Origin: Candidatus Puniceispirillum marinum IMCC1322
Lineage (GTDB): Bacteria > Pseudomonadota > Alphaproteobacteria > Puniceispirillales > Puniceispirillaceae
Direction of reading: 5' to 3'
Assembly (NCBI RefSeq): GCF_000024465.1
Contig: NC_014010.1
Span: 1 to 64,000 of the forward strand
Length of the DNA stretch: 64,000 nucleotides
Part shown: positions 4,049-34,179 of the stretch, piece after piece
How positions within the stretch are numbered: the stretch's first letter is position 1
How the letters are laid out: every line of letters begins with the position of its first letter
Position numbers and translations under genes: made by a program
The notes under the pieces: model-generated
Databases searched by the model: none
What the model was told of the DNA's origin: nothing
The model's input: only the letters and a program-made list of their open reading frames with translations

Positions 4049-4064
4049 TGTTTCACGTGAAACA
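4049..4064. promoter_or_regulatory. parS: parS site 2 (ParB centromere site)
   Basis: A second exact copy of TGTTTCACGTGAAACA, 1225 bp from the first. Both copies match at every base of the consensus, which is very unlikely by chance within 1.3 kb. Confidence 0.92.
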
Positions 4065-4219: not shown

Positions 4220-4234
4220 TTAACTTTTAATTAA
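4220..4234 (+). promoter_or_regulatory. CtrA-type box upstream of the type ISP enzyme
   Basis: TTAA (4220-4223), CTTTTAA, TTAA (4231-4234), followed by CCC. It ends 39 bp before the ATG of the restriction-modification gene, a position where a regulator would overlap the promoter. Confidence 0.5.
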
Positions 4235-4273
4235 CCCTTCATCTATAGGCTTCCCGAACAAGGGGGGCTTCAC

Positions 4274-7200
4274 ATGACCACATTCAATGATGTGCTTGAC
4301 GCATTGCGCGCGCAGGCACGAAATACGCGCGAACAAGGCACATTGTTTGAAGATTTGATGGAGGCAATTTTGCCTCAGCTACCCGATGCTGGCTTTGAAG
4401 AGGTCTGGTCGTGGAAAGCATGGCCAGACCGTCATGCACAAACGGGCATGAACGCACAGGATGTCGGCATTGATCTGGTTGGCAAGCGCGAGGGTGAAGA
4501 TGGTTTCTGCGCCATTCAATGCAAATTCTATGACCCCGATACCAGCATAGCGGAAAGCGATCTTGGCACCTTTTTCACGCAATCCGGCAAGGATGCGTTT
4601 TCTTCGCGCCTGATTATCACGACGACTGATAGATGGACAAAACACGCCGAAACGGCGATCCGGCATCAGGACAAGCCGACCAACCGGATGCGTATGGCCG
4701 ATCTGGCCGAACTGGCCATTGACTGGGATATTCACAAGCCGAAACAGACCAAACTCGATATCACCAAATACACATTGAATGGACGCCAGAAAGAGGCGCG
4801 TGACGCGGTCATAACTGGCCTGAAAGATAATGACCGTGGCAAGCTGATCATGGCGTGCGGTACGGGCAAAACCCTGACCTCGCTACATATAGCCGAAATG
4901 ATGATAGAGGGGACAGGCCATGTGCTGTTCATGGTGCCATCGATTTCGCTACTGGCGCAAAGCCTGCATGAATGGTCGTTTCAACGGCGCAAGGATCATC
5001 GCTATATCGCTGTCTGTTCGGATACAAAGGTTGATCGCACATCCGAAGATAGCGCCGTTGAAGATTTGATCTTTCCAGCCTCAACCAATGCCCATAGCGT
5101 TGCCCATGCCCTGCGTCAAAAAGCAAACCGCATGACGGTTGTGTTCTGCACCTATCAGTCGATTGACATTATTCATCAGGCACAGCAAATGGGCGCACCT
5201 GCTTTTGATCTGGTGATCTGTGACGAGGCGCACCGTACCACCGGTATTGACCGCGCCAATCTGGCAAAAGGCAAAACCAGCCCCTTTGTTCGCGTGCATG
5301 ATGGCGATTATCTGAAAGCGGCGAAACGTCTGTATATGACAGCGACGCCGCGCATCTATACCGATCATTCAAAACAAAAGGCCGATGACCAAAATATCGG
5401 CATCTATTCGATGGATGACGAGGCCGAATTTGGCACGGTTCTGTATCGGCTGTCTTTTTCCGATGCCATTACCGAAGGGCTGTTATCCGATTACCGTGTT
5501 ATTGTCCTGAATATGTCCGAAAGCCATGTCAGCCAGACGATGCAGGATGCGATTTCGGATAAAAACGAACTCTCGGTCGATGATGCAGCAAAGATTGTTG
5601 GCTGTTATAATGCCTTGCGCAACCGCCCCGAAGAAAGTGACAGCAAAAAGCTCAAGCGCGCGGTCAGCTTTTCCAGCACGATCAAAAAATCGAAACATGT
5701 GCGCGATCATTTTCAGGCGGTTGTCGATAAGATGGATGAGCAGGAACATGACGGCTTTACCTGTCAGGTCGATCATGTCGATGGCACCAATACCGCACTG
5801 GAACGCAAAAACAAACTTGACTGGTTGCGTGAACCGGCAGGCGCGAATGAACATGGCGAAATCTGCCGTATATTGAGCAATGCCAAATGCCTGACCGAGG
5901 GGGTGGACGTGCCCGCACTCGATGCCGCCATTTTCATGAATCCGCGTAAATCACAGGTCGATGTGGTGCAGGCCGTTGGCCGCGTCATGCGCAAGGCCGA
6001 AGGCAAGGATTATGGCTATGTGATTTTGCCGATTGTTATTCCCCTTGGCAAAACCCCCGAAGAGGCTCTGGATGACAATGAAACCTATGCCGTGGTCTGG
6101 GAAATTCTGCGCGCCTTGCGTTCGCATGATGACCGCCTGACCAATATGATCAGCAAACTTGATCTTAACGCCACCAAGCCCGATTTCATTCAGGTGATTG
6201 GCGGCGATGCGTGGGATGACCAAGACAGTGAAAAGGTAAAAGACGGCTTTCAGTTCGGGCTGGATCTGGGCGAGGAATTCAGAGACGCCATCTATGCCAA
6301 GCTGGTTGAAAGGGTAGGTGACCGCCAATATTGGGAAACATGGGCGCGTGATGTTGCGCATATCCATGAACTGCTGATCACCCGCATCACCGATTTATGC
6401 GCCAGCAATCCGGCCTTGCAAGCGCGGTTTGACGGATTTGTTACCAGCCTGCAAGCCGACATTAATGACAATGTCGATGCGGGTGAGGCTGTTTCGATTC
6501 TGGCGCAACATATGATTACCCGCCCTATTTTTGACGCCTTGTTTGACCATTATGATTTTGCGGGGCTGAATCCGGTATCGCAATCGCTGGATATGATGCT
6601 GGCGGAACTGGCACCTTTTGGTCTGGAAAATGAATTACGCGGCATGGATCGCTTTTATGCCAGTGTCCGTGATCGCGTGACTGGCATTGATAATGCCGCC
6701 GCGCGCCAGAAGATCGTGATTGAACTTTATGAAAAATTCTTCAAAACGGCTTTTCCGAAAGTGTCGGAAAGTCTGGGCATTGCCTATACGCCAGTTGAAA
6801 TTGTCGATTTTATCCTGCATAGCGCCGATCATGTTCTGCGCACCCAATTCGGGCGCGGCATTGGCGATGAAGATGTGCATGTCATTGACCCGTTCACCGG
6901 TACTGGTACCTTTATCAACCGTTTGATCAGCAATCCCGCGCTGATCCCCGATGAAAAATTACCGCATAAATTCGCGCATGAAATCCATGCCAATGAAATG
7001 CTGCTGATGGCTTATTACATCGCCTCAATCAATATTGAAGAGGCGTATCACGTGCGTATGTCAAAGGCTAATGGTGGGGCGGGCGGGGGTGCCAAAACAG
7101 GCGGTGATTATATGCCGTTTCCGGGGATTGTTCTGACCGACACATTCCAATTATATGAACGTGCCCTATCGCGGCAGGACGATATGGACAGCCATTTCAT

Positions 7201-9064
7201 GCCCGATAATAACGAACGCCGTAATCGCCAGATCAACGCCCCGATCCGCGTTATTATCGGTAACCCGCCATATTCGGCAGGGCAGAAATCACAGAATGAC
7301 GCCAATCAGAACCTCACCTATCCCAATCTGGATGAAAGCATACGTTCAACCTATGCGGCACAATCGACCGCAACAAACAAAAACGCGCTATATGATTCCT
7401 ATATCCGCGCGTTCAAATGGGCGTCGGATCGCATCGGTGATGAAGGCGTCATTGCCTTGGTTTCAGGTGCCGCATGGATTGACCGCCCCTTTGCCGACGG
7501 TATGCGTAAATCACTAGCCGAAGAATTTAGTTCGATTCATATTTTTCATCTGCGCGGTGATATTCGCAAAAATATGCTGTCAAAAGGGGCGGCGCGCGAA
7601 GGTGAAAATGTCTTTGGTCAGGCCAGTATGACCGGAATCGCCATCACCATCCTGACCAAGCAAGCGGGGCATGTGGGCGATTGTGCCATCTATCATCACG
7701 ATATTGGCGATGACCTGCGCCGTGATGACAAACTGGCCAAAATCGCCGATGCCAGATCGATTGCGGGGCTGGATTGGCAGACCATCATTCCTAACCCTGA
7801 GGGTGACTGGTTGAACCAGCGTGACCCCGCTTTTCAGAAATTGATAGCACTGGGAAGTAAGGATGTTAAGTCCCGCAAGGTGATTGCGCCCGATACGGTG
7901 TTCAAGGTTTATAGTGGCGGTGTCAAAACCAACCGAGACCCGTGGGCTTACAATATCAGTCAACAAAAACTGGTGGATAATATGCAGGCGATGGTGGGCT
8001 TTTACAATGAACAGCTGGCCGATTTTCAGGCCGCAAAACAAAATCACTCAGATCTGAAAGCCGCCGATTTCATTTCAAATGATCCAACAAAAATAAGCTG
8101 GAGCCGTTCTCTAGTAGCCGATATAGGTAAGTTAAAATCACTGATTTTCAGCCAGCAACATATCACATCTTCGCAATACCGACCTTTTACACGCGAATAC
8201 CTATATTTTGATCGTCGCCTGAACGACATGGTTTATCGGATGCCCTCAATTTTCCCGAAGCCCGATAACGAAAATCGTGTTATCGCGGTGACGGGGGTTG
8301 GGTCACGGAGCGGGTTTTCATGTCTGATTGCCGATTGTGTGCCAAACCTTCATTATCTGGACTCTGGCCAATGTTTCCCGCGCTGGACATTTGATGAGGA
8401 TGGCCGTAACCGACAGGATAATATCCCGAATGAGGCTGTGCGCCGTTTCCGCGCGCATTACGCCGATGAATCGATCACTGGCGATGATATTTTTGATTAT
8501 GTTTATGGCATTCTGCACGCCCCCGATTACCGCACAACATTTGCCAACGACCTGACCAAGGCATTGCCGCGCATCCCGATGGCACCCGATTTTCGGGCAT
8601 TTGCCAAGGCGGGCAAACAGCTCGGGGCTCTGCATCTGAATTATGAAACAGGCGATGAATATGGCCTGAACATCCTGGTTGATGGGGATATTGCGCTGGG
8701 GGATATTCTGCTGGATGATGCGGATTATCATGTGCAGAAAATGCGCTGGGCATCGAAAACCGACAAAACCGCCATCCGCTATAATAACCGCATCACGCTG
8801 GCGGGGATTCCCGCCGATGCCTTGCGCTATGTGGTGTCGGGCAAGCCCGCGCTCGATTGGGTGATTGACCGCTATTGCATCAAGACCGACAAGGCAAGCG
8901 GTATTACCAATGACGCGAATGACTGGATCACCGAACAGATCGCTAATGGCGGCAATGAGGGCGGCGCGCCCGATGCGCTGATCCGCCTGATCCAGCGCGT
9001 TACGCATCTGAGCGTCGAGACGATGAAGATCGTCGATAATCTGCCCCCTAGTTTGGAGGAATAG
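4274..9064 (+). CDS. Type ISP single-polypeptide restriction-modification enzyme
   Basis: One 1596-residue chain with all modules of the LlaGI/LlaBIII class. An Mrr-like nuclease domain comes first, with likely catalytic D67 and Q82-x-K84 (GIDLVG, AIQCKFY). A superfamily-2 translocase follows: Walker A ACGTGKT at about 194-200, DEAH at 317-320, YMTATPR near 355 and QAVGRVMRK as motif VI. A gamma-class N6-adenine methyltransferase has the SAM motif DPFTGTGTF near 872 and catalytic NPPY at about 997-1000. The last ~500 residues should be the target-recognition domain. The family length is about 1570-1600, so it appears intact. Such enzymes methylate one strand of an asymmetric site and cut after converging translocation. 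The next small gene's ribosome site overlaps this gene's end. Confidence 0.94.
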   Translation: MTTFNDVLDALRAQARNTREQGTLFEDLMEAILPQLPDAGFEEVWSWKAWPDRHAQTGMNAQDVGIDLVGKREGEDGFCAIQCKFYDPDTSIAESDLGTFFTQSGKDAFSSRLIITTTDRWTKHAETAIRHQDKPTNRMRMADLAELAIDWDIHKPKQTKLDITKYTLNGRQKEARDAVITGLKDNDRGKLIMACGTGKTLTSLHIAEMMIEGTGHVLFMVPSISLLAQSLHEWSFQRRKDHRYIAVCSDTKVDRTSEDSAVEDLIFPASTNAHSVAHALRQKANRMTVVFCTYQSIDIIHQAQQMGAPAFDLVICDEAHRTTGIDRANLAKGKTSPFVRVHDGDYLKAAKRLYMTATPRIYTDHSKQKADDQNIGIYSMDDEAEFGTVLYRLSFSDAITEGLLSDYRVIVLNMSESHVSQTMQDAISDKNELSVDDAAKIVGCYNALRNRPEESDSKKLKRAVSFSSTIKKSKHVRDHFQAVVDKMDEQEHDGFTCQVDHVDGTNTALERKNKLDWLREPAGANEHGEICRILSNAKCLTEGVDVPALDAAIFMNPRKSQVDVVQAVGRVMRKAEGKDYGYVILPIVIPLGKTPEEALDDNETYAVVWEILRALRSHDDRLTNMISKLDLNATKPDFIQVIGGDAWDDQDSEKVKDGFQFGLDLGEEFRDAIYAKLVERVGDRQYWETWARDVAHIHELLITRITDLCASNPALQARFDGFVTSLQADINDNVDAGEAVSILAQHMITRPIFDALFDHYDFAGLNPVSQSLDMMLAELAPFGLENELRGMDRFYASVRDRVTGIDNAAARQKIVIELYEKFFKTAFPKVSESLGIAYTPVEIVDFILHSADHVLRTQFGRGIGDEDVHVIDPFTGTGTFINRLISNPALIPDEKLPHKFAHEIHANEMLLMAYYIASINIEEAYHVRMSKANGGAGGGAKTGGDYMPFPGIVLTDTFQLYERALSRQDDMDSHFMPDNNERRNRQINAPIRVIIGNPPYSAGQKSQNDANQNLTYPNLDESIRSTYAAQSTATNKNALYDSYIRAFKWASDRIGDEGVIALVSGAAWIDRPFADGMRKSLAEEFSSIHIFHLRGDIRKNMLSKGAAREGENVFGQASMTGIAITILTKQAGHVGDCAIYHHDIGDDLRRDDKLAKIADARSIAGLDWQTIIPNPEGDWLNQRDPAFQKLIALGSKDVKSRKVIAPDTVFKVYSGGVKTNRDPWAYNISQQKLVDNMQAMVGFYNEQLADFQAAKQNHSDLKAADFISNDPTKISWSRSLVADIGKLKSLIFSQQHITSSQYRPFTREYLYFDRRLNDMVYRMPSIFPKPDNENRVIAVTGVGSRSGFSCLIADCVPNLHYLDSGQCFPRWTFDEDGRNRQDNIPNEAVRRFRAHYADESITGDDIFDYVYGILHAPDYRTTFANDLTKALPRIPMAPDFRAFAKAGKQLGALHLNYETGDEYGLNILVDGDIALGDILLDDADYHVQKMRWASKTDKTAIRYNNRITLAGIPADALRYVVSGKPALDWVIDRYCIKTDKASGITNDANDWITEQIANGGNEGGAPDALIRLIQRVTHLSVETMKIVDNLPPSLEE

Positions 9065-9244: not shown

Positions 9245-9259
9245 TTAACAAAACGTTAG
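9245..9259. promoter_or_regulatory. Imperfect CtrA-type box between convergent genes
   Basis: TTAA-CAAAACG-TTAG. Unlike the other boxes it is not upstream of a start but in the gap between two gene ends. Its flanks resemble those of the box at 10145, suggesting a copied intergenic segment. Confidence 0.3.
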
Positions 9260-9302: not shown

Positions 9303-10094
9303 TTAGCTTTCGTCATCATCGGGAATATCCTTTACAAAGCGGCATCGGGGATAGCCCGTACATCCCAGAAAAATATTGCCTACATTATTACCGCGCTTCG
9401 CCGTTCTTTTCGTCAATGCTGAACCACATCGCGGACAGTGCGTTGATGAACTGTGCCTATCATATATTGAGCGGATATGTTCATCATCGCTTATTGAGTC
9501 TTGCGCTTGCAATTGGGCAAACCGGTCATTTATGCGCGTCACATCAACGTCATCAAAAATACGGCGGTCAAATTGCTTGATATATCTATCAACGCCAGAT
9601 TGAAGGACATTAGCGGGCATATCTGTTTTGAACTCACAATCACCTACAAATGAAATCAATTCGTGGATATTGCGCCGATTTAAGCCAAGATAGTTAGCAA
9701 GCATTATCTTTTGCCTGAAGGTTTGTCGCAATGGGTTTTGGAATTGATGCTTTGCCTGATAGTGAATCTGTGTCCATTTGGCCTGTTTTTCATTGCCAAA
9801 AATCCAGCCATCCATGTTTTTTGTTTCGATTATGAACAACCCGAATGCAGAGATCACAATATGATCAATTTGTGTTGTTCCATGTCGACCATTCCCAGAG
9901 GGGATGATCACATTCTCATGAATAGAATATAGGTCAGCATCAAGCGACGAGTGCAAGCTATCAGAGGTTTCCTGTTCGCCAAGCCACCCTTTGTGCGATG
10001 GATTGTAGTACACACCACGAAATCGGGGAATAGGACGCCTAGCCCTGCCATAAGGATCAGCCCCGAACAACAATTTTATTAAATAGGTGATCAC
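9303..10094 (-). CDS. NERD-domain protein with topoisomerase-type zinc finger
   Basis: A 263-residue protein. The NERD (nuclease-related) domain covers about residues 35-150 with GWLGEQE, then D77 in QIDHIVIS and E90-x-K92 in IIETKN, the residues expected of a PD-(D/E)XK-like fold. The C-terminus has a four-cysteine zinc finger (C220, C223, C245, C251; CPRCGS...GCTGYPRC) as in topoisomerase I tails, expected to bind DNA. NERD proteins are common in defence islands and mobile regions, and this one sits between a restriction enzyme and a toxin-antitoxin pair. The start is a GTG with a weak ribosome site; a CtrA-type box lies 51 bp upstream. Confidence 0.88.
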   Translation of the reverse strand: MITYLIKLLFGADPYGRARRPIPRFRGVYYNPSHKGWLGEQETSDSLHSSLDADLYSIHENVIIPSGNGRHGTTQIDHIVISAFGLFIIETKNMDGWIFGNEKQAKWTQIHYQAKHQFQNPLRQTFRQKIMLANYLGLNRRNIHELISFVGDCEFKTDMPANVLQSGVDRYIKQFDRRIFDDVDVTRINDRFAQLQAQDSISDDEHIRSIYDRHSSSTHCPRCGSALTKRTAKRGNNVGNIFLGCTGYPRCRFVKDIPDDDES

Positions 10095-10144
10095 ATCTTT
10101 TAAGCGTCTGGTTACAAGTTAAGCCAAAGCCTATAAAAGACGGG

Positions 10145-10159
10145 TTAATTAAACGTTAA
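10145..10159 (-). promoter_or_regulatory. CtrA-type box upstream of the NERD gene
   Basis: TTAA (10145-10148), TTAAACG, TTAA (10156-10159): a perfect TTAA-N7-TTAA box, 51 bp upstream of the NERD start codon. Confidence 0.5.
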
Positions 10160-10196
10160 GTGAGTGCGATTTTACTTAATAATTTTCACCCCATCA

Positions 10197-10256
10197 CCCC
10201 TCATGTCGGGATGCCGCTTGCCAGCTGGATATGCCATTCGGCGCGGGTGATCTGGC
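10197..10256 (-). repeat. 60-bp direct repeat, left copy (remnant of the sel1 gene 3' end)
   Basis: Identical in 59 of 60 bases to 11015-11074, the 3' end of the Sel1-repeat gene. Read on the minus strand it still encodes the last 18 or so codons of that protein, with the stop, but no gene precedes it. The two copies bracket the hicBA pair. Confidence 0.9.
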
Positions 10257-10262
10257 TGGTGA

Positions 10263-10499
10263 TTAACAGTCACATTCACCATATAAACAAGCGTCAGGCA
10301 AGCCAGATTGGGCGATCATGGATTTCAATGTTTGCTGGATCACGTCGCTACCAGATTTGCCAGACACAATCACATGGCCAGGATGACCCGCCTTTTTGAA
10401 TTTGCGATGTGAGCCTTTGGCGGGTTCTTGAGTAAAACCATGCTTTTCTAGCGCGGCGATGACTTCACGGACTTTTAATGTGCGTTTTGATGATGCCAT
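10263..10499 (-). CDS. hicA: HicA-type toxin (mRNA interferase)
   Basis: A 78-residue protein with the HicA double-stranded-RNA-binding-like fold: an N-terminal helix region (VREVIAALEKHGF) and the catalytic GSH motif (KGSHRKFKK) with H37 or so, followed by a beta strand (HVIVSGKSG). HicA toxins cleave mRNA and stop growth until neutralised by HicB. The start ATG at 10499 overlaps the end of the antitoxin gene by 25 bases; an in-frame ATG at 10523 would add eight residues. Here the antitoxin gene comes first, the less common order. Confidence 0.85.
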   Translation of the reverse strand: MASSKRTLKVREVIAALEKHGFTQEPAKGSHRKFKKAGHPGHVIVSGKSGSDVIQQTLKSMIAQSGLPDACLYGECDC

Positions 10500-10864
10500 G
10501 CGGAATAATTCCCGTGCTGGCACCGTTCCACATTGTCGTTATTGTGATCTGATGCTTTGAATTTATCGCGCCAAACCAAAAATTTAAATTTTACTCGTTC
10601 CCATATAGGCATACGCAAATTGTCATAATGTGCGCGCTCTGCGCCAGTGGCGGCGTCACGCTCGTCAAACCAGTCAATCAAAGCATCGATGAATATCTCG
10701 CTTGCTTCGTCTTCGCTGTCGCCCTGAACGGCGATATAGGGGTATGTTGCGACGATATGATGGCTACCATCTTCGCATTTGGTCATGAAAACGCCGCCTT
10801 CAAGTCGTTGCAACACATTTTTCAACGCGACTGGTGCCCGTTCGTCTTGTGCTGGTTTTGACAT
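10475..10864 (-). CDS. hicB: HicB-like antitoxin
   Basis: A 129-residue protein ahead of and overlapping hicA. The N-terminal half has the HicB pattern (VATYPYIAVQGDSEDEASEIFIDAL, about residues 38-63). The C-terminal half (WERVKFKFLVWRDKFKASDHNN...) is charged and ends in a His/Asn-rich tail; the usual helix-turn-helix or ribbon-helix-helix domain for autoregulation was not recognised. The start ATG has AGGGAGA upstream. The 150-bp upstream gap holds an inverted repeat (10928-10938 with 10983-10993, 10 of 11 pairs) that could be the operator. Assignment rests largely on pairing with hicA. Confidence 0.72.
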   Translation of the reverse strand: MSKPAQDERAPVALKNVLQRLEGGVFMTKCEDGSHHIVATYPYIAVQGDSEDEASEIFIDALIDWFDERDAATGAERAHYDNLRMPIWERVKFKFLVWRDKFKASDHNNDNVERCQHGNYSAWHHQNAH

Positions 10865-10927
10865 TTAGAGTTCTCCCTGTAGCTTTTCAGGGGGCATTAT
10901 GTTGGCTTGCCCGTCAGAAAAAATATA

Positions 10928-10993
10928 CCCACCAAAATGTCTGCTACTATCACCGCTATCAGTAACGCAAAAAAATGTCAATATTTTGGCGGG
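10928..10993 (-). promoter_or_regulatory. Spaced inverted repeat upstream of hicBA
   Basis: CCCACCAAAAT at 10928-10938 and ATTTTGGCGGG at 10983-10993 are inverted copies with one mismatch, 44 bp apart, in the promoter region of the toxin-antitoxin pair. Possible autoregulatory site; no experimental support. Confidence 0.3.
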
Positions 10994-11014
10994 CGTGGTT
11001 TATTTGTAATATCC

Positions 11015-11074
11015 CCCCTCATGTCGGGATGCCGCTCGCCAGCTGGATATGCCATTCGGCGCGGGTGATCTGGC
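11015..11074 (-). repeat. 60-bp direct repeat, right copy (genuine sel1 3' end)
   Basis: Overlaps the last codons and stop of the Sel1-repeat gene. It matches 10197-10256 at 59 of 60 bases. Distance between copies is 818 bp. Confidence 0.9.
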
Positions 11075-11720
11075 CATCGCTCAGGCGGGTGCGCAGACGC
11101 GATAACAGCTTGTCCAGCTTGGCATGAAAATCTGCCGATAAAGGCTTATGCGATCTGGTCGGGTGCGTGCTGATCTGGCGGGCGTTGATTTCGGCCATGC
11201 GCGCCCAGCCATAGGCATGCTGCAGATTGCGCTTTACGCCGCGGCCATGCGCAAACAGGATCGCCAGATTATGCTGGGCAACGGGGTGGTTGTGATGCGC
11301 CGCCTGATGATAGAAACGTGCCGCTGTGGCAAAATTCTGCTTCACGCCAAGCCCGCGTTCATACAGAAAGCCAAGCCGGAATTGCGCGCGTATATGCCCC
11401 TGGGTGGCGGCTAGGCTGTAATAATGATGCGCTGTGGTCATGTCTTGCGGCACATGCTGGCCGCGCTGAAACGCCTCGCCAAGCCGGAATTGCGCGATTG
11501 CCGAGCCGGCGGCGGCCTGCTGGCGGAGGGTGGTGATCTGCTTGCTGGTGTCCTGCGGTAAGGTGCCAGCTTCGGCCTCGGTCACAAAGGGGATCGCCAG
11601 CACACACAGGATCAGCGCGATAACAATGCCGCGCATCATCGCCACCGTGCGGCGCGCATTTCCATAGCGGCTGGGGTCGGGAATGTGAATGCTGGTAATG
11701 GTAAAGGGTCTTGTGGTCAT
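11019..11720 (-). CDS. Sel1-repeat (TPR-like) protein, secreted or membrane-anchored
   Basis: A 233-residue protein from the ATG at 11720, chosen because AGGAGG precedes it by seven bases; the frame stays open upstream to 11999 but those residues look non-coding. An N-terminal hydrophobic segment (about residues 31-50, GIVIALILCVLAIPFVTEAEA) could be a signal peptide or anchor. Three Sel1 repeats follow (QFRLGEAFQRG..., QFRLGFLYERGLGV..., QHNLAILFAHGRGV...), helical pairs used for protein-protein contacts, often in envelope or signalling proteins. The partner is unknown. Its 3' end is duplicated on the far side of hicBA. Confidence 0.82.
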   Translation of the reverse strand: MTTRPFTITSIHIPDPSRYGNARRTVAMMRGIVIALILCVLAIPFVTEAEAGTLPQDTSKQITTLRQQAAAGSAIAQFRLGEAFQRGQHVPQDMTTAHHYYSLAATQGHIRAQFRLGFLYERGLGVKQNFATAARFYHQAAHHNHPVAQHNLAILFAHGRGVKRNLQHAYGWARMAEINARQISTHPTRSHKPLSADFHAKLDKLLSRLRTRLSDGQITRAEWHIQLASGIPT

Positions 11721-12020
11721 GTCTGCCTCCTGTTTTGTGTTTCCGGCGCACCGGCTCCTGAGGCAAGTATTAGGAATAAATAATTTACAAAACGTTAATG
11801 CAATGGTGAATAATGCGCGCCTCACCAAAATGTGATTTCGGCGGTGCCTGTCCGGCATTGACCAGCACGGGCAGGGGCGCATGTCAGCATCAAACATGCG
11901 GAAATATAGGGGCTTTCGGTTGACATAGGGCGGCTTTTCGCCTACACCCTCGTGAAGTTTGGTGCCAGCATGGCTCTGGTTGTGCGTACCGAACCCCATT
12001 TCAGATAAATGAGCAATAAT
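11721..12020. other. Intergenic region between the sel1 gene and rpmF
   Basis: About 300 bp holding divergent promoters. It contains an imperfect CtrA-type box at 11784-11798 and a frame (minus, to 11999) continuous with sel1 but lacking a ribosome site or recognisable residues. Nothing else was seen. Confidence 0.5.
11784..11798 (-). promoter_or_regulatory. Imperfect CtrA-type box upstream of the sel1 gene
   Basis: TTTA-CAAAACG-TTAA: spacing of seven kept, one base changed in the first half; 64 bp upstream of the chosen sel1 start. Confidence 0.35.
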
Positions 12021-12206
12021 ATGGCTGTTCCAAAAAGTAAGATCACCAAATCAAAGCGGAATATGCGCCGCGCCCATGATGCGCTGAGCAGTGACGCCTA
12101 TGTCGAAGATAAAACAACTGGCGAATTGCACCGCCCGCATCATATCGACCTGAAAACCGGTATGTATCGCGGCAAGCAGGTGCTTAAAGTCAAAGATCGC
12201 ATCTAA
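12021..12206 (+). CDS. rpmF: 50S ribosomal protein bL32
   Basis: A 61-residue basic protein starting [22 protein letters not shown], the signature N-terminus of bL32. The four zinc-binding cysteines of some bL32 forms are absent (C-minus type). The start at 12021 is preferred over an in-frame ATG at 12009 because bL32 always begins MAVPK. The usual downstream partners plsX and fabH are not present; instead a 15-bp tandem repeat begins one base after the stop. Confidence 0.96.
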
Positions 12207-12261
12207 TCTATCGGGCATCAGTCTATCGGGCATCAGTCTATCGGGCATCTGGTCTATCGGG
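12207..12261. repeat. 15-bp tandem repeat directly after rpmF
   Basis: About 3.6 copies of TCTATCGGGCATCAG beginning immediately after the rpmF stop codon. The third copy differs by one base and the fourth is partial and offset by one base. A similar 15-bp array follows amt. Confidence 0.85.
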
Positions 12262-12449
12262 AAAAGCGGCACCTATTGATGTCTGTCCAGATTACCCCGA
12301 TGATCATTCGGCCTCTTTGACTGGTTCCAGGCGGGCTTTATGAGTGGTTGGCATGCGGGGCTTTGCACCGGGCTTTGTCACAGTTGAATCTCATCACGCT
12401 AAAGCTCATTTCGCTATATGGGCACCTTTAAGGGTAAAGGCTTTTCATC

Positions 12450-12779
12450 ATGAACGACAAACATGCGAAATTCAGCATTGGCGCGATTGTACGGCACCGG
12501 CTGTATCCGTTTCGCGGCGTCGTTGTCGATGTCGATCCCGAATTCGACAATAGCGAAGAATGGTATAATTCGATCCCAGCCGAAGCGCGGCCAGAAAAAG
12601 ACCAGCCATTCTATCATCTGCTGGCCGAAAATGCCGATAGCTATTACACCGCCTATGTCAGCCAGCAGAATCTGTTGGCCGATGGCGAGAATGGCCCGGT
12701 CGGGCATCCCGATATCGACGAGGTTTTCGACAGTCTGGATGGCGAATGCTATGTGCTGCGCCGTGAGGCCTATAACTAA
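12450..12779 (+). CDS. hspQ: Heat shock protein HspQ / hemimethylated-DNA-binding YccV-like
   Basis: A 109-residue protein matching the YccV/HspQ fold: KFSIGAIVRHRLYPFRGVVVDVDPEFDNSEEWY near the N-terminus, then QPFYHLLAEN and TAYVSQQNLL. In E. coli HspQ binds hemimethylated DNA and modulates Lon proteolysis; alphaproteobacterial members are commonly annotated from sequence only. It stands alone between rpmF and the SUF operon. The start ATG has a short AAGG ribosome site. A C-terminal region of about 25 residues is acidic. Confidence 0.9.
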   Translation: MNDKHAKFSIGAIVRHRLYPFRGVVVDVDPEFDNSEEWYNSIPAEARPEKDQPFYHLLAENADSYYTAYVSQQNLLADGENGPVGHPDIDEVFDSLDGECYVLRREAYN

Positions 12780-12884
12780 GCCGCCTAGCGCTTATAATTC
12801 CCGATTTCATAAATAATTTTTGCATGCTTGCGATGGCGATAGGGCTTGCAATAACGGCGGGTTTTCCTATATCTAGCTAATCAG

Positions 12885-12897
12885 GACTAAATTAGTC
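12885..12897 (+). promoter_or_regulatory. Palindrome upstream of the Rrf2/SUF operon
   Basis: GACTAA-A-TTAGTC, a perfect 6-bp inverted repeat around one base, about 90 bp upstream of the Rrf2-family start. Rrf2 proteins such as IscR bind sites of this kind, so it may be the autoregulatory operator. Confidence 0.45.
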
Positions 12898-12899
12898 TT

Positions 12900-12918
12900 G
12901 ATTATGATAATCATTCGC
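12900..12918 (+). promoter_or_regulatory. Fur-like iron box
   Basis: GATTATGATAATCATTCGC agrees with the classical 19-bp Fur box at 16 positions. It adjoins the palindrome at 12885 and lies about 70 bp before the Rrf2-family gene that heads the SUF operon. Iron control of SUF is well established in other bacteria; in this lineage the acting protein could be Fur, Mur or Irr. Confidence 0.5.
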
Positions 12919-12985
12919 AGATATGGCCTCGTTTCCGTTCTTAATGTGCGGCGATGGCGCCAATAGAGCGAAAGCAGGAGACAGC

Positions 12986-13480
12986 ATGATCAGGCTGAAC
13001 CGGATGACAGATTACGCGATTGTCGTGCTTGGCGCATTGGCGCATAAGCGCGATGAAACCGTGGCGACCGCGTTACTGGCCGAACTGACCGGGTTGAAAC
13101 AGCCAACCGTGGCCAAGGTGGCCAAAAACCTCGTGGCGGCCGATCTGCTGGTCACGCAACGCGGGGTGAATGGGGGGTATCGGCTGGTCCGGCCTGCGCG
13201 GTCGATTTCGCTGGTTGATATTGTCGAAGCGATGGAAGGCCCGATCGCGGTGACCGATTGCGTCGATGGCGCGCCAGATCCATGCGCGGTGACGCATTGC
13301 TGTTTCATGGCAAATAACTGGAACCGGGTCAATCTGGCAATCCGCGGCGCGCTTGAGGCGGTGACGCTGGAGGATCTGACCGATCCGGCGCAATTGTTTC
13401 CGGTGCGGATGTCGGCAGATCAGATGGCCGATGATGACCCGCAAGATAATAATGCGTCTTATGTAGAGCGCATGAATTAG
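12986..13480 (+). CDS. Rrf2-family SUF regulator (IscR/SufR-like)
   Basis: A 164-residue transcription factor starting MIRLNRMTDYAIVVLGALA, with AGGAG six bases before the ATG; an upstream in-frame ATG at 12923 has no ribosome site. The winged helix-turn-helix spans about residues 8-65 (LTGLKQPTVAKVAKNLVAADLLVTQRGVNGGYRL). Cysteines in TDCVDGAPDPCAVTHCC (about 91-105) fit the Fe-S ligand loop of IscR-type sensors. As first gene of the operon it is expected to sense cluster supply and control sufBCDS. The C-terminal tail is acidic and unassigned. Confidence 0.9.
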   Translation: MIRLNRMTDYAIVVLGALAHKRDETVATALLAELTGLKQPTVAKVAKNLVAADLLVTQRGVNGGYRLVRPARSISLVDIVEAMEGPIAVTDCVDGAPDPCAVTHCCFMANNWNRVNLAIRGALEAVTLEDLTDPAQLFPVRMSADQMADDDPQDNNASYVERMN

Positions 13481-13508
13481 GACTTTGACAACAGGACTTT
13501 GACAACAG
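13479..13508 (+). repeat. 14-bp tandem repeat with -35-like boxes before sufB
   Basis: AGGACTTTGACAAC occurs twice head to tail, the first copy overlapping the regulator's stop codon. Each copy includes TTGACA, an ideal -35 hexamer, giving a possible internal promoter for sufB. No strong -10 box is seen at the right distance. Confidence 0.6.
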
Positions 13509-13543
13509 TTAGACTAGACATTTAGCGAGTAAGAGGAAAGCTT

Positions 13544-14995
13544 ATGGCGGCAACAACCCAAACCATCGAACAGATGGAAGCGGCAACAGGCAAATATAAA
13601 TACGGATTTGTCACCGATATCGAAAGCGATAAGGCACCCAAAGGCCTTAACGAAGATATCATCCGCTTTATTTCGGCCAAAAAGGACGAGCCAGAATGGA
13701 TGCTGGCCTGGCGGCTGAAAGCCTATAAAAAATGGCTGACGATGGAATCACCCGACTGGGCGAAGCTAGATATTGATCCGATTGATTATCAGGATGTGTA
13801 TTATTATTCGGCGCCGAAAGATTCTGAAAAGCTGAAATCGCTTGATGAGGTCGATCCGGAATTGCTCGCTACCTATGAAAAGCTGGGAATTCCGCTGAAT
13901 GAGCAGAAAATGCTGGCTGGCGTGGCAGTTGATGCGGTGTTTGATTCAGTATCGGTAGCGACGACCTTTCGCGGTGAACTGGCCAAGGTGGGGGTTATTT
14001 TCTGCCCGATTTCCGAAGCCATCCGCGATTATCCCGATCTGGTCAAAAAATATATGGGGTCAGTGGTACCTGTTGCCGATAATTATTTCTCGGCGCTGAA
14101 CAGCGCGGTGTTCACCGATGGATCATTCGTCTATATCCCGAAAGGCGTGCGCTGCCCGATGGAGCTATCGACCTATTTCCGGATCAATGAACAGAATACC
14201 GGCCAGTTCGAACGGACGCTGATTATCGCCGAGGACGAATCCTATGTCAGCTATCTCGAAGGCTGTACCGCACCGCAACGCGATGAAAACCAGCTACATG
14301 CGGCGGTTGTCGAACTGGTCGCGATGCAGGATGCCGAAATCAAATATTCAACCGTGCAGAACTGGTATCCGGGCGATGAAAACGGCAAAGGCGGGATCTA
14401 TAATTTTGTCACCAAACGTGGCGCCTGTCGCGGTGATCGGTCAAAGATTTCATGGACACAGGTGGAAACCGGTTCGGCGATCACATGGAAATATCCATCC
14501 TGTATTCTGCAAGGCAAGGAGTCGGTGGGCGAATTCTATTCGGTGGCTTTGACAAATAACATGCAACAAGCCGATACCGGCACGAAAATGATCCATATCG
14601 GCGAAGGCAGCCGTTCGACGATCATCTCGAAGGGGATTTCGGCAGGCAAGTCGCAAAATTGCTATCGCGGGCTTGTGCGGATGCAACCAGGTGCCGAGAA
14701 TGCGCGTAACTTTACGCAATGTGACTCGCTTCTGGTGGGTGATAAATGTGGTGCGCATACGGTGCCCTATATCGTCTCGCGCAACCCCAGTGCCAAAATC
14801 GAACATGAGGCGACAACGTCGCGCATTTCCGAAGATCAGCTGTTTTATTGTCTGCAACGCGGCATCAATGAAGAAGATGCCGTGTCTTTGATCGTCAATG
14901 GCTTCTGCAAGGAAGTGATGAAGGAATTGCCGATGGAATTTGCCGTCGAAGCACAGAAACTTATTGGAATCAGCCTTGAAGGCTCGGTTGGTTAA
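13544..14995 (+). CDS. sufB: Fe-S cluster scaffold subunit SufB
   Basis: A 483-residue cytoplasmic protein, the usual SufB length. It has the family opening ([17 protein letters not shown]), the core [39 protein letters not shown], and the C-terminal [10 protein letters not shown] and CGAHTVPYI motifs with conserved cysteines at about 393 and 403. SufB with SufC and SufD forms the SufBC2D complex on which Fe-S clusters are assembled with sulfur from SufS. The ATG has AGAGGAAAG upstream; sufC follows after 18 bp. Confidence 0.97.
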
Positions 14996-32944: not shown

Positions 32945-32995
32945 AAGGACGCCTTGTTTTTCGGTTTCTGTTCGCATCATATTAAGGGATCGATG

Positions 32996-33010
32996 TTAAT
33001 ATCCGGTTAA
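32996..33010 (-). promoter_or_regulatory. CtrA-type box upstream of the RidA-family gene
   Basis: TTAA (32996-32999), TATCCGG, TTAA (33007-33010). The same box with the same core, followed by a similar AAAAAAGGCGGGG stretch, recurs at 34129. Confidence 0.45.
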
Positions 33011-33076
33011 CAGCGCCTAAAAAAGGCGGGGTGCCGAGAGGGCGAATATCGCGTTATGTCACGCCGAGAGGCCAGA

Positions 33077-34051
33077 CTAATCGATCGATTGCAGTCGTTG
33101 CACAGCGTTAACAATACGGCTGAGCGCAGGGGGGGTAAGCACCATGCCAGCATGGTCAATATCTGGCAGAATATCAATGTCAACTAGCCCAGGCGCAGAG
33201 GCAAAGACGGTGTCATATTTATCTGCGTGAAAAAGTTCATCATTCGCACCAGCCAGAACGATGAATGGTTTTGAAGCTGATTTGATGGCCGCTTTATAGT
33301 CATCTGGTAATCTGAAATTTGTTGCCAGATTGTAGTCATAAGAACCAGTTAACAGGTCACTGGTATATGGGTTTATTCCATAGCGTATCACAGGCAGAAA
33401 GTTGAACCATGTTACCCCAATCGCGTTTAGGATGTTGAGTGCTAACAATCTTGGAACGCCAACACCTGCCCAATCAGCACTTTGTCTTTGGGTTGGTGCG
33501 TCTTGATGAATGAATGGGGATAGAAGCAGATAGCTGTCGAATAGATCAGCATCGGCGCTGACCGCAAATCGTAAGGTAAAACCACCACCTGCCGAAAAAC
33601 CAGCAAGGGTGCGCGGGTGTGATGGCCGGATATGGTCAAGGAAATCGATAATGTCACTTTCAAGACGTCCTATTTTATCGATATGGCCTTTGCGACCGGA
33701 ATTTCCATGCCCACGTATATCAAGGGCATAGGTTGAGAACCCAGCATATGCCAGATGCTTTGCGACATTATGCATGCTTATACTGGTGGCTGATGATCCA
33801 TGTATCAGAATGACCGAACCTTTGATGTTGTCATTTTGCTCTGGCGCATAGTGCCGATAGGCCAGTTGTCCGGCGCTACTTTCAAAGACGTTGATATCTT
33901 TTGCCCCACGATAGTCAGCCTGCCCGAATGCCCTATCGATACTTTGCAAGACTGGCGGTGTTTTGGGGGCACCCATCCAGAGGGCGCAAGCAATAGCGAA
34001 AACGCCAATGCAGATGAATAAAATGAGAATCTGCAGAGTAAAATTAGGCAT
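33077..34051 (-). CDS. Membrane-anchored alpha/beta hydrolase
   Basis: A 324-residue protein with one N-terminal membrane helix (residues ~5-25) and a hydrolase domain outside or at the membrane. Motifs: VILIHGSSAT (oxyanion), DIRGHGNSGR, nucleophile elbow GFSAGGG (S153), and IDHAGM supplying His near residue 300. The substrate is unknown. It is a single gene with its own CtrA-type box 78 bp upstream. Confidence 0.85.
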   Translation of the reverse strand: MPNFTLQILILFICIGVFAIACALWMGAPKTPPVLQSIDRAFGQADYRGAKDINVFESSAGQLAYRHYAPEQNDNIKGSVILIHGSSATSISMHNVAKHLAYAGFSTYALDIRGHGNSGRKGHIDKIGRLESDIIDFLDHIRPSHPRTLAGFSAGGGFTLRFAVSADADLFDSYLLLSPFIHQDAPTQRQSADWAGVGVPRLLALNILNAIGVTWFNFLPVIRYGINPYTSDLLTGSYDYNLATNFRLPDDYKAAIKSASKPFIVLAGANDELFHADKYDTVFASAPGLVDIDILPDIDHAGMVLTPPALSRIVNAVQRLQSID

Positions 34052-34128
34052 TTAATGCTTTCCCATGTTTCACCGCACAAGCAAACAGACATGCTATGTT
34101 GGTAAACATTAACTATAGAAGGAAAGCG

Positions 34129-34143
34129 TTAATATCCGGTTAA
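34129..34143 (-). promoter_or_regulatory. CtrA-type box upstream of the anchored hydrolase gene
   Basis: TTAA (34129-34132), TATCCGG, TTAA (34140-34143); core and right flank match the box at 32996. It lies between this gene's start and the amt terminator. Confidence 0.45.
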
Positions 34144-34150
34144 CAGCACC

Positions 34151-34179
34151 AAAAAAGGCGGGGATTGCGCCCCGCCTTT
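34151..34179 (-). terminator. Intrinsic terminator of amt
   Basis: A perfect 10-bp stem AAAGGCGGGG (34154-34163) with CCCCGCCTTT (34170-34179) around a six-base loop. On the minus strand it is followed by a run of T (the A run at 34151-34156), as expected for rho-independent termination of amt. Confidence 0.85.

Follow-up and report, generated by a model that had tools for sequence, protein, structure and literature searches.

In Candidatus Puniceispirillum marinum IMCC1322, a putative hicBA toxin-antitoxin operon lies between two copies of the 3′ end of a neighbouring gene, which codes for a Sel1-repeat protein (sel1). How could these genes arrive behind an intact sel1 and leave a second gene end on their far side? 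The window that we analysed comprises the first 64,000 nucleotides of contig NC_014010.1, and the features discussed below are collected in Table 1.

The repeat pair and the genes between its copies

The two copies form a direct repeat with a full match of 64 nt, of which 62 positions are identical (97%), at a spacing of 818. The preliminary description had counted 59 identical positions out of 60 (10197-10256 against 11015-11074); this count is correct, and the pair extends to 64 nt. The repeat is made up of the final 56 bp of sel1 including the stop codon and 8 bp beyond the stop. One mismatch (A10196/C11014) is non-coding and the other (T10219/C11037) exchanges GCG and GCA and is synonymous in sel1. 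The longest exact run common to both copies is 37 nt; in 300 sequences of 5 kb simulated with the same dinucleotide composition, the longest exact repeat did not exceed 16 nt. Within the single-contig genome of 2,753,527 bp the repeat core has exactly two matches when up to three mismatches are allowed. The copy at sel1 is the native one: the C-terminus of the protein (...SDGQITRAEWHIQLASGIPT) is homologous to that of a relative (L044, ...SDSQIHRARWQVEQLFGTGL), in which sel1 is also located next to rpmF. The copy beyond hicA has no gene body attached, as had been noticed before, and this orphan ends abruptly 7 bp from the hicA stop codon. An integron gene cassette was considered and rejected. 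The attC core GTTRRRY/RYYYAAC is absent from the 64-nt repeat, and the 64-mer does not fold better than shuffled sequences, neither as an attC-like structure nor as a terminator.

Table 1. Position and assignment of the sel1 locus features and of the repeat-flanked inserts found elsewhere in the genome
Feature	Position	Strand	Basis or remark
Type ISP / IIG restriction-modification enzyme, same defence island	4274..9064	(+)	Profile match
NERD nuclease-domain gene with Topo-type zinc ribbon, first gene past the orphan repeat	9303..10094	(-)	Profile match
Direct repeat copy 1, orphan sel1 3′ end	10193..10256	(-)	62/64 identity to copy 2
Inserted segment, hicBA operon and upstream region, 754 bp	10257..11010	(.)	Composition; no terminal inverted repeats found
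hicA toxin gene	10263..10499 (ATG at 10499; alternative GTG at 10523)	(-)	PF07927
hicB-like antitoxin gene (probable), divergent, overlaps hicA	10475..10864	(-)	Foldseek, blastp; weak
Direct repeat copy 2, native sel1 3′ end	11011..11074	(-)	C-terminus homologous to sel1 beside rpmF in relatives
sel1 (Sel1-repeat protein), target gene, intact	11019..11720	(-)	Pfam PF08238; beside rpmF in relatives
rpmF (ribosomal protein L32), conserved sel1 neighbour across the family	12009..12206	(+)	Family comparison
VOC-like insert	Genome 1849512-1850710 (L118 5512-5637, 6585-6710)		126-nt repeat, 5′ end of a membrane-protein gene
EamA insert	Genome 126447-127540 (L089 16447-16515, 17472-17540)		69-nt repeat, 3′ end of an Fe-ADH gene
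Methyltransferase insert	Genome 2634113-2636778 (L127 16113-18778)		105-nt repeat, 3′ end of an Asp/Asn-hydroxylase-like gene; decayed, with indel
971-aa protein insert			41-nt repeat, 3′ end of a PLP-enzyme gene

The inserted segment has a GC content of 46% versus 60% for sel1. The assignment of HicA is clear (Pfam PF07927, E = 2.7e-15). Its catalytic GSH motif, which includes the catalytic histidine, is intact and invariant in an alignment with other HicA proteins. We did not find hicA in viral contigs, and elsewhere in the family there is a single remote match, which is interrupted by a stop.

The partner gene is far less conserved. Profile searches of the open reading frame at 10475-10864 gave zero Pfam or NCBIfam matches. 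Its single-sequence AlphaFold2 model is weak (pLDDT 61), and in a Foldseek search with this model the HicB-type antitoxin 3k6q ranked first (E = 0.2) and the HicB protein 6g1c fifth (E = 0.8), neither being significant. A pairwise blastp comparison matched the protein to the hicA-adjacent open reading frame of another alphaproteobacterium (L082) with E = 5e-5. Together these weak signals suggest that the reading frame probably codes for a divergent HicB-like antitoxin. Homologues of the protein were found neither in IMG/VR, plasmids and phages nor in 385 alphaproteobacterial genomes and genome_contigs. The locus resembles HicAB type II systems in that a HicA with catalytic histidine is accompanied by a probable HicB-like partner, whose gene overlaps hicA in one operon. 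It differs in the gene order hicB-hicA and in its antitoxin, which is too divergent for Pfam and for which no close homologue was found. In three alphaproteobacterial genomes (L081, L082 and L087, at about 1166-1701) a HicB-like open reading frame is convergent to hicA at a distance of 10-18 bp; these reading frames are also without Pfam match and are weakly similar to the antitoxin of the window.

The sel1 edge of a defence island

The conserved frame of this region in the family is selO-asnC-ald ... sel1-rpmF-hspQ-iscR. In the IMCC1322 genome, the gap between ald/tRNA-Ala and sel1 is occupied by a defence island with, in the order toward sel1, Cas9 and Cas1, a CRISPR array, an EamA transporter, the type ISP/IIG enzyme, the NERD nuclease and hicBA. 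None of the 20 relatives examined, all from other genera of the same family, carries the restriction-modification, NERD or hicBA genes at the sel1 locus. Since these relatives keep sel1-rpmF yet without hicBA there, the pair is, as judged from the genome comparison, an acquisition specific to this lineage and lies where a defence hotspot borders on sel1. Close relatives of sel1 itself were not found in genome_contigs.

Some further features of the island are worth recording. The CRISPR locus comprises an array of 26 identical repeats with a period of about 66 bp, Cas9 (1035 aa) and Cas1, and is split across the contig origin (positions 1-1800 of the window and 10465-14500 of the stretch L066). 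Two perfect TGTTTCACGTGAAACA sites (parS-like) at 2824-2839 and 4049-4064 flank an EamA gene. Inverted 33-nt near-repeats with TTAA-N7-TTAA (CtrA-box-like) lie upstream of the restriction-modification and NERD genes (4220-4252 and 10127-10159), and motifs resembling TTAA-N7-TTAA occur near 9245 and 11784.

The comparison with the relatives bears on one possible origin of the repeat pair, that is, a tandem duplication of a sel1-containing segment and subsequent deletion of most of one copy, which would leave hicBA between the intact gene and a remnant. Such a history would give the same end product, and the decayed methyltransferase case of Table 1, with a second, order-permuted repeat, may be of this kind. 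Yet hicBA is foreign by composition and absent from the sel1 locus of the relatives, and the orphan copy stops sharply next to hicA. The 97% identity of the copies argues against an old event, and the old tandem duplication that had been named as a rival beforehand is not favoured because no relative examined carries the arrangement. We therefore regard a tandem duplication as improbable.

Gene-end scars elsewhere in the genome

Is the arrangement at sel1 peculiar to hicBA? A census of 2.08 of the 2.75 Mb (75% of the genome), read as stretches, searched for isolated direct repeats of 36-500 bp within 6 kb and was blind to genes. Besides sel1, four repeat pairs proved to be copies of the end of a protein gene around an unrelated insert. 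These sister cases were identified post hoc.

In the scar with the VOC-like insert, all five differences between the copies are synonymous, and they cluster within the first 57 nt. In the EamA scar the orphan end of the Fe-ADH gene extends past the BLAST match and reads as 26 codons (LAYPSVGGNPVEMTVENTRALLESCL versus LADPSVGGNPVEMTADNTRALLESCL), of which 11 are changed synonymously and 3 non-synonymously. The methyltransferase locus contains two repeat families in the permuted order A-B-insert-B-gene-A, and more than one event is needed to explain it. The boundaries follow a simple rule. One of them lies between -3 and +23 bp from the gene terminus in five out of five cases (P about 5e-4 under uniform boundaries), a test that partly reflects selection against insertions that break genes, which is in part why the repeats include gene ends. 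The opposite boundary falls within the gene in all five, at a depth that ranges from tens of bases to 125 bp. No boundary sequence or repeat core common to the five scars was found.

In the four undecayed cases, 15 of the 18 coding differences between the copies are synonymous as compared with about 27% expected (P about 2e-6); with the decayed methyltransferase case included, the count is 17 of 25 (P about 4e-5). The predominance of synonymous changes indicates that both copies at the undecayed scars were, to judge by their codons, once working gene ends in separate genomes. It does not fit a duplication in situ with later drift. The recurrence of the scar around unrelated genes suggests that DNA of related strains has been pasted in by ordinary recombination, with no special mobile element.

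In a 400-kb stretch of the relative G013 there is no coding gene-end scar, where about one would be expected at the rate of IMCC1322; a stretch of this size is too small to mark the scars as a peculiarity of IMCC1322. In the relatives, no donor arrangement was found for the VOC or the EamA insert; homologues of the VOC gene occur in two of them, not located beside the same gene. In G013 we also noted a 54-nt duplicated tRNA 3′ end (884247-884300 and 887617-887670, L237) which flanks two small kinase/nucleotidyltransferase-like genes and a TPR protein; no integrase was seen there.

Possible routes of entry

The preliminary description had seen in the 818-bp unit a dedicated cassette of the integrative type which had entered at the 3′ end of sel1. 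Part of this stands, namely the insertion at the 3′ end, the intact gene and the second copy of the gene end. The dedicated cassette is not supported, as a search for other genes with the 818-bp unit gave no further copy in the genome and at least four inserts unrelated to hicBA are bordered by a scar of this type. It was also right that no integrase accompanies the genes: there is none in the insert, the island or the window. Integrase domains are absent over about 68 kb upstream and 400 kb downstream, and the nearest tyrosine recombinase lies on the other side of the contig origin, at a distance of about 68 kb.

If the 64-mer were the attachment site of a small mobile cassette, the integrase would have to be supplied in trans. 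Integrase elements typically recreate the 3′ end of a gene, 15 matches to the tyrosine-recombinase family occur elsewhere in the genome, and a gene end borne on attP would likewise yield synonymous differences. The scars speak another language, however. Cargoes, target genes and repeats are all different and share no common core, the 64-mer is restricted to the sel1 locus where an att core should recur among several insertions, its fold is not unusual, and neither a second copy of the unit nor an integrase near hicBA is present. A genuine integrase element of the same genome (1452391-1455683, about 3.1 kb, L163/L164) encodes its own phage/tyrosine integrase and sits at tRNA-Phe between 147-bp repeats (at 1452391 and 1455537), an anatomy unlike that of the hicBA scar. 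We consider a cassette moved in trans to be unlikely. Still more speculative, and in our opinion very improbable, is the idea that this marine lineage has a class of gene-end cassettes without an integrase, hicBA among them, which would be moved by an unrecognised trans-acting recombinase and carry the end of the target gene as identity block. An attachment site in an RNA gene was rejected, as the window contains neither a tRNA nor another RNA gene; tRNA-Ala adjoins ald at the opposite end of the island, upstream of cas9. The 147-bp repeat of the tRNA-Phe element also copies the N-terminal coding region of its integrase.

A second route is insertion with a long target duplication. Here the 64 bp of the recipient itself would have been doubled, for example when a staggered break was filled around captured DNA. 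The anatomy is identical to that of restriction-modification gene insertions in Helicobacter. Long duplications of variable length (about 100 bp) around restriction-modification addiction modules are described in PMC3874152 and PMC3031569, with reference to Nobusato 2000 and Furuta 2010. These insertions share with our locus an addiction module, target repeats of about 50-100 bp and the lack of a mobility gene; they differ in that our cargo is a toxin-antitoxin pair and that the sister cases have non-addictive cargo and synonymous copy differences. That toxin-antitoxin pairs occur in such brackets is already known from Microcystis aeruginosa PCC 7806, where a ParDE-like module downstream of MaOC1 is fenced by long direct repeats right after the stop codon of the chromosomal gene (PMC7935541). 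The repeats there are intergenic, 152 bp long and identical, and they contain inverted repeats, whereas here the coding 3′ end of the neighbour is repeated. At hicBA the repeats and the module are present, and the module is absent in the relatives (same family, other genera); that the copies differ at just 2 of 64 positions speaks for a target duplication. Against it, the sister copies differ mostly synonymously, a pattern not expected from a duplication whose dead copy drifts; moreover, one of the two boundaries coincides with the gene terminus every time, and the cargo is mostly not addictive. A long target duplication is the main rival, which we nevertheless hold to be rather unlikely.

With the synonymous bias and the boundary at the gene terminus, integration through a single homologous anchor is favoured over both an att-site cassette and a pure target duplication. 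We lean, with moderate confidence, to the view that DNA of a related strain, in which hicBA already lay just downstream of sel1, was integrated through homology on one side. The donor fragment would have carried the last part of the donor sel1 and hicBA. The homologous sel1 segment would have served as anchor, and the other end of the fragment would have been joined without homology. This could happen by circularisation of the fragment and a single crossover or, alternatively, by homology-facilitated illegitimate recombination (HFIR) with the joint inside the resident sel1. Either route would leave sel1 intact with hicBA behind it, while the sel1 end of the other strain would be stranded beyond hicBA and form the second copy of the direct repeat. 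An integrase would not be needed. Both give the same anatomy and are not separable here. A repeat boundary at the gene terminus is expected if donor and recipient are homologous only up to the point at which the neighbouring sequences differ.

For hicBA itself we infer the donor arrangement and the joining step. The two differing bases, one synonymous and one non-coding, cannot decide the mechanism, and the allele argument for hicBA would rest on the sister cases. The genome encodes the DNA-uptake channel ComEC, which we count for integration through a single anchor. As a counterpoint, 64 bp of homology is short for a RecA-dependent crossover. The donor arrangement, hicBA beside sel1 with no repeats, was not found in the genomes of the family, all of which belong to other genera. 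Once installed, HicBA probably functions like other toxin-antitoxin pairs and would penalise its own loss by recombination between the repeats.

Similar events have been described. In Escherichia coli, DNA with homology at one end was in most cases first circularised and then integrated through a single crossover, which gave duplications of 109-950 bp of the anchor locus, whereas HFIR of the classical type was rare (PMC3240628). The route proposed here shares with these events the single homologous anchor, the non-homologous joint and the lack of a mobility enzyme. They were, however, laboratory events with plasmid or cloned DNA, while our route is read from genome scars with a gene end as anchor and an unseen donor. 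HFIR has also been proposed for T6SS modules, where the displaced 3′ end of a gene is shifted back (PMC5361080). The T6SS effector-immunity arrays of Vibrio cholerae in that study resemble the sel1 locus in that the insertion is anchored and a displaced gene 3′ end remains behind the inserted module; they differ in that effector domains are replaced, whereas sel1 retains an intact homologous C-terminus.

If hicBA was gained through a single anchor, a streamlined ocean bacterium can acquire toxin-antitoxin pairs, and accessory genes of other kinds, with no mobile element involved. Gene-end scars with mostly synonymous copy differences would then be a readable record of this type of gene gain, and its frequency could be estimated by scanning genomes for short direct repeats that equal a gene end. 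The same route offers an alternative reading of the published long target duplications around restriction-modification genes.

A related arrangement lies in the window itself. Downstream of an AmtB-like gene, a 37-nt direct repeat (32995-33031 and 34128-34163; 94.6%) surrounds a gene for an alpha/beta hydrolase (33077-34051) and looks like a non-coding analogue of the gene-end scars.
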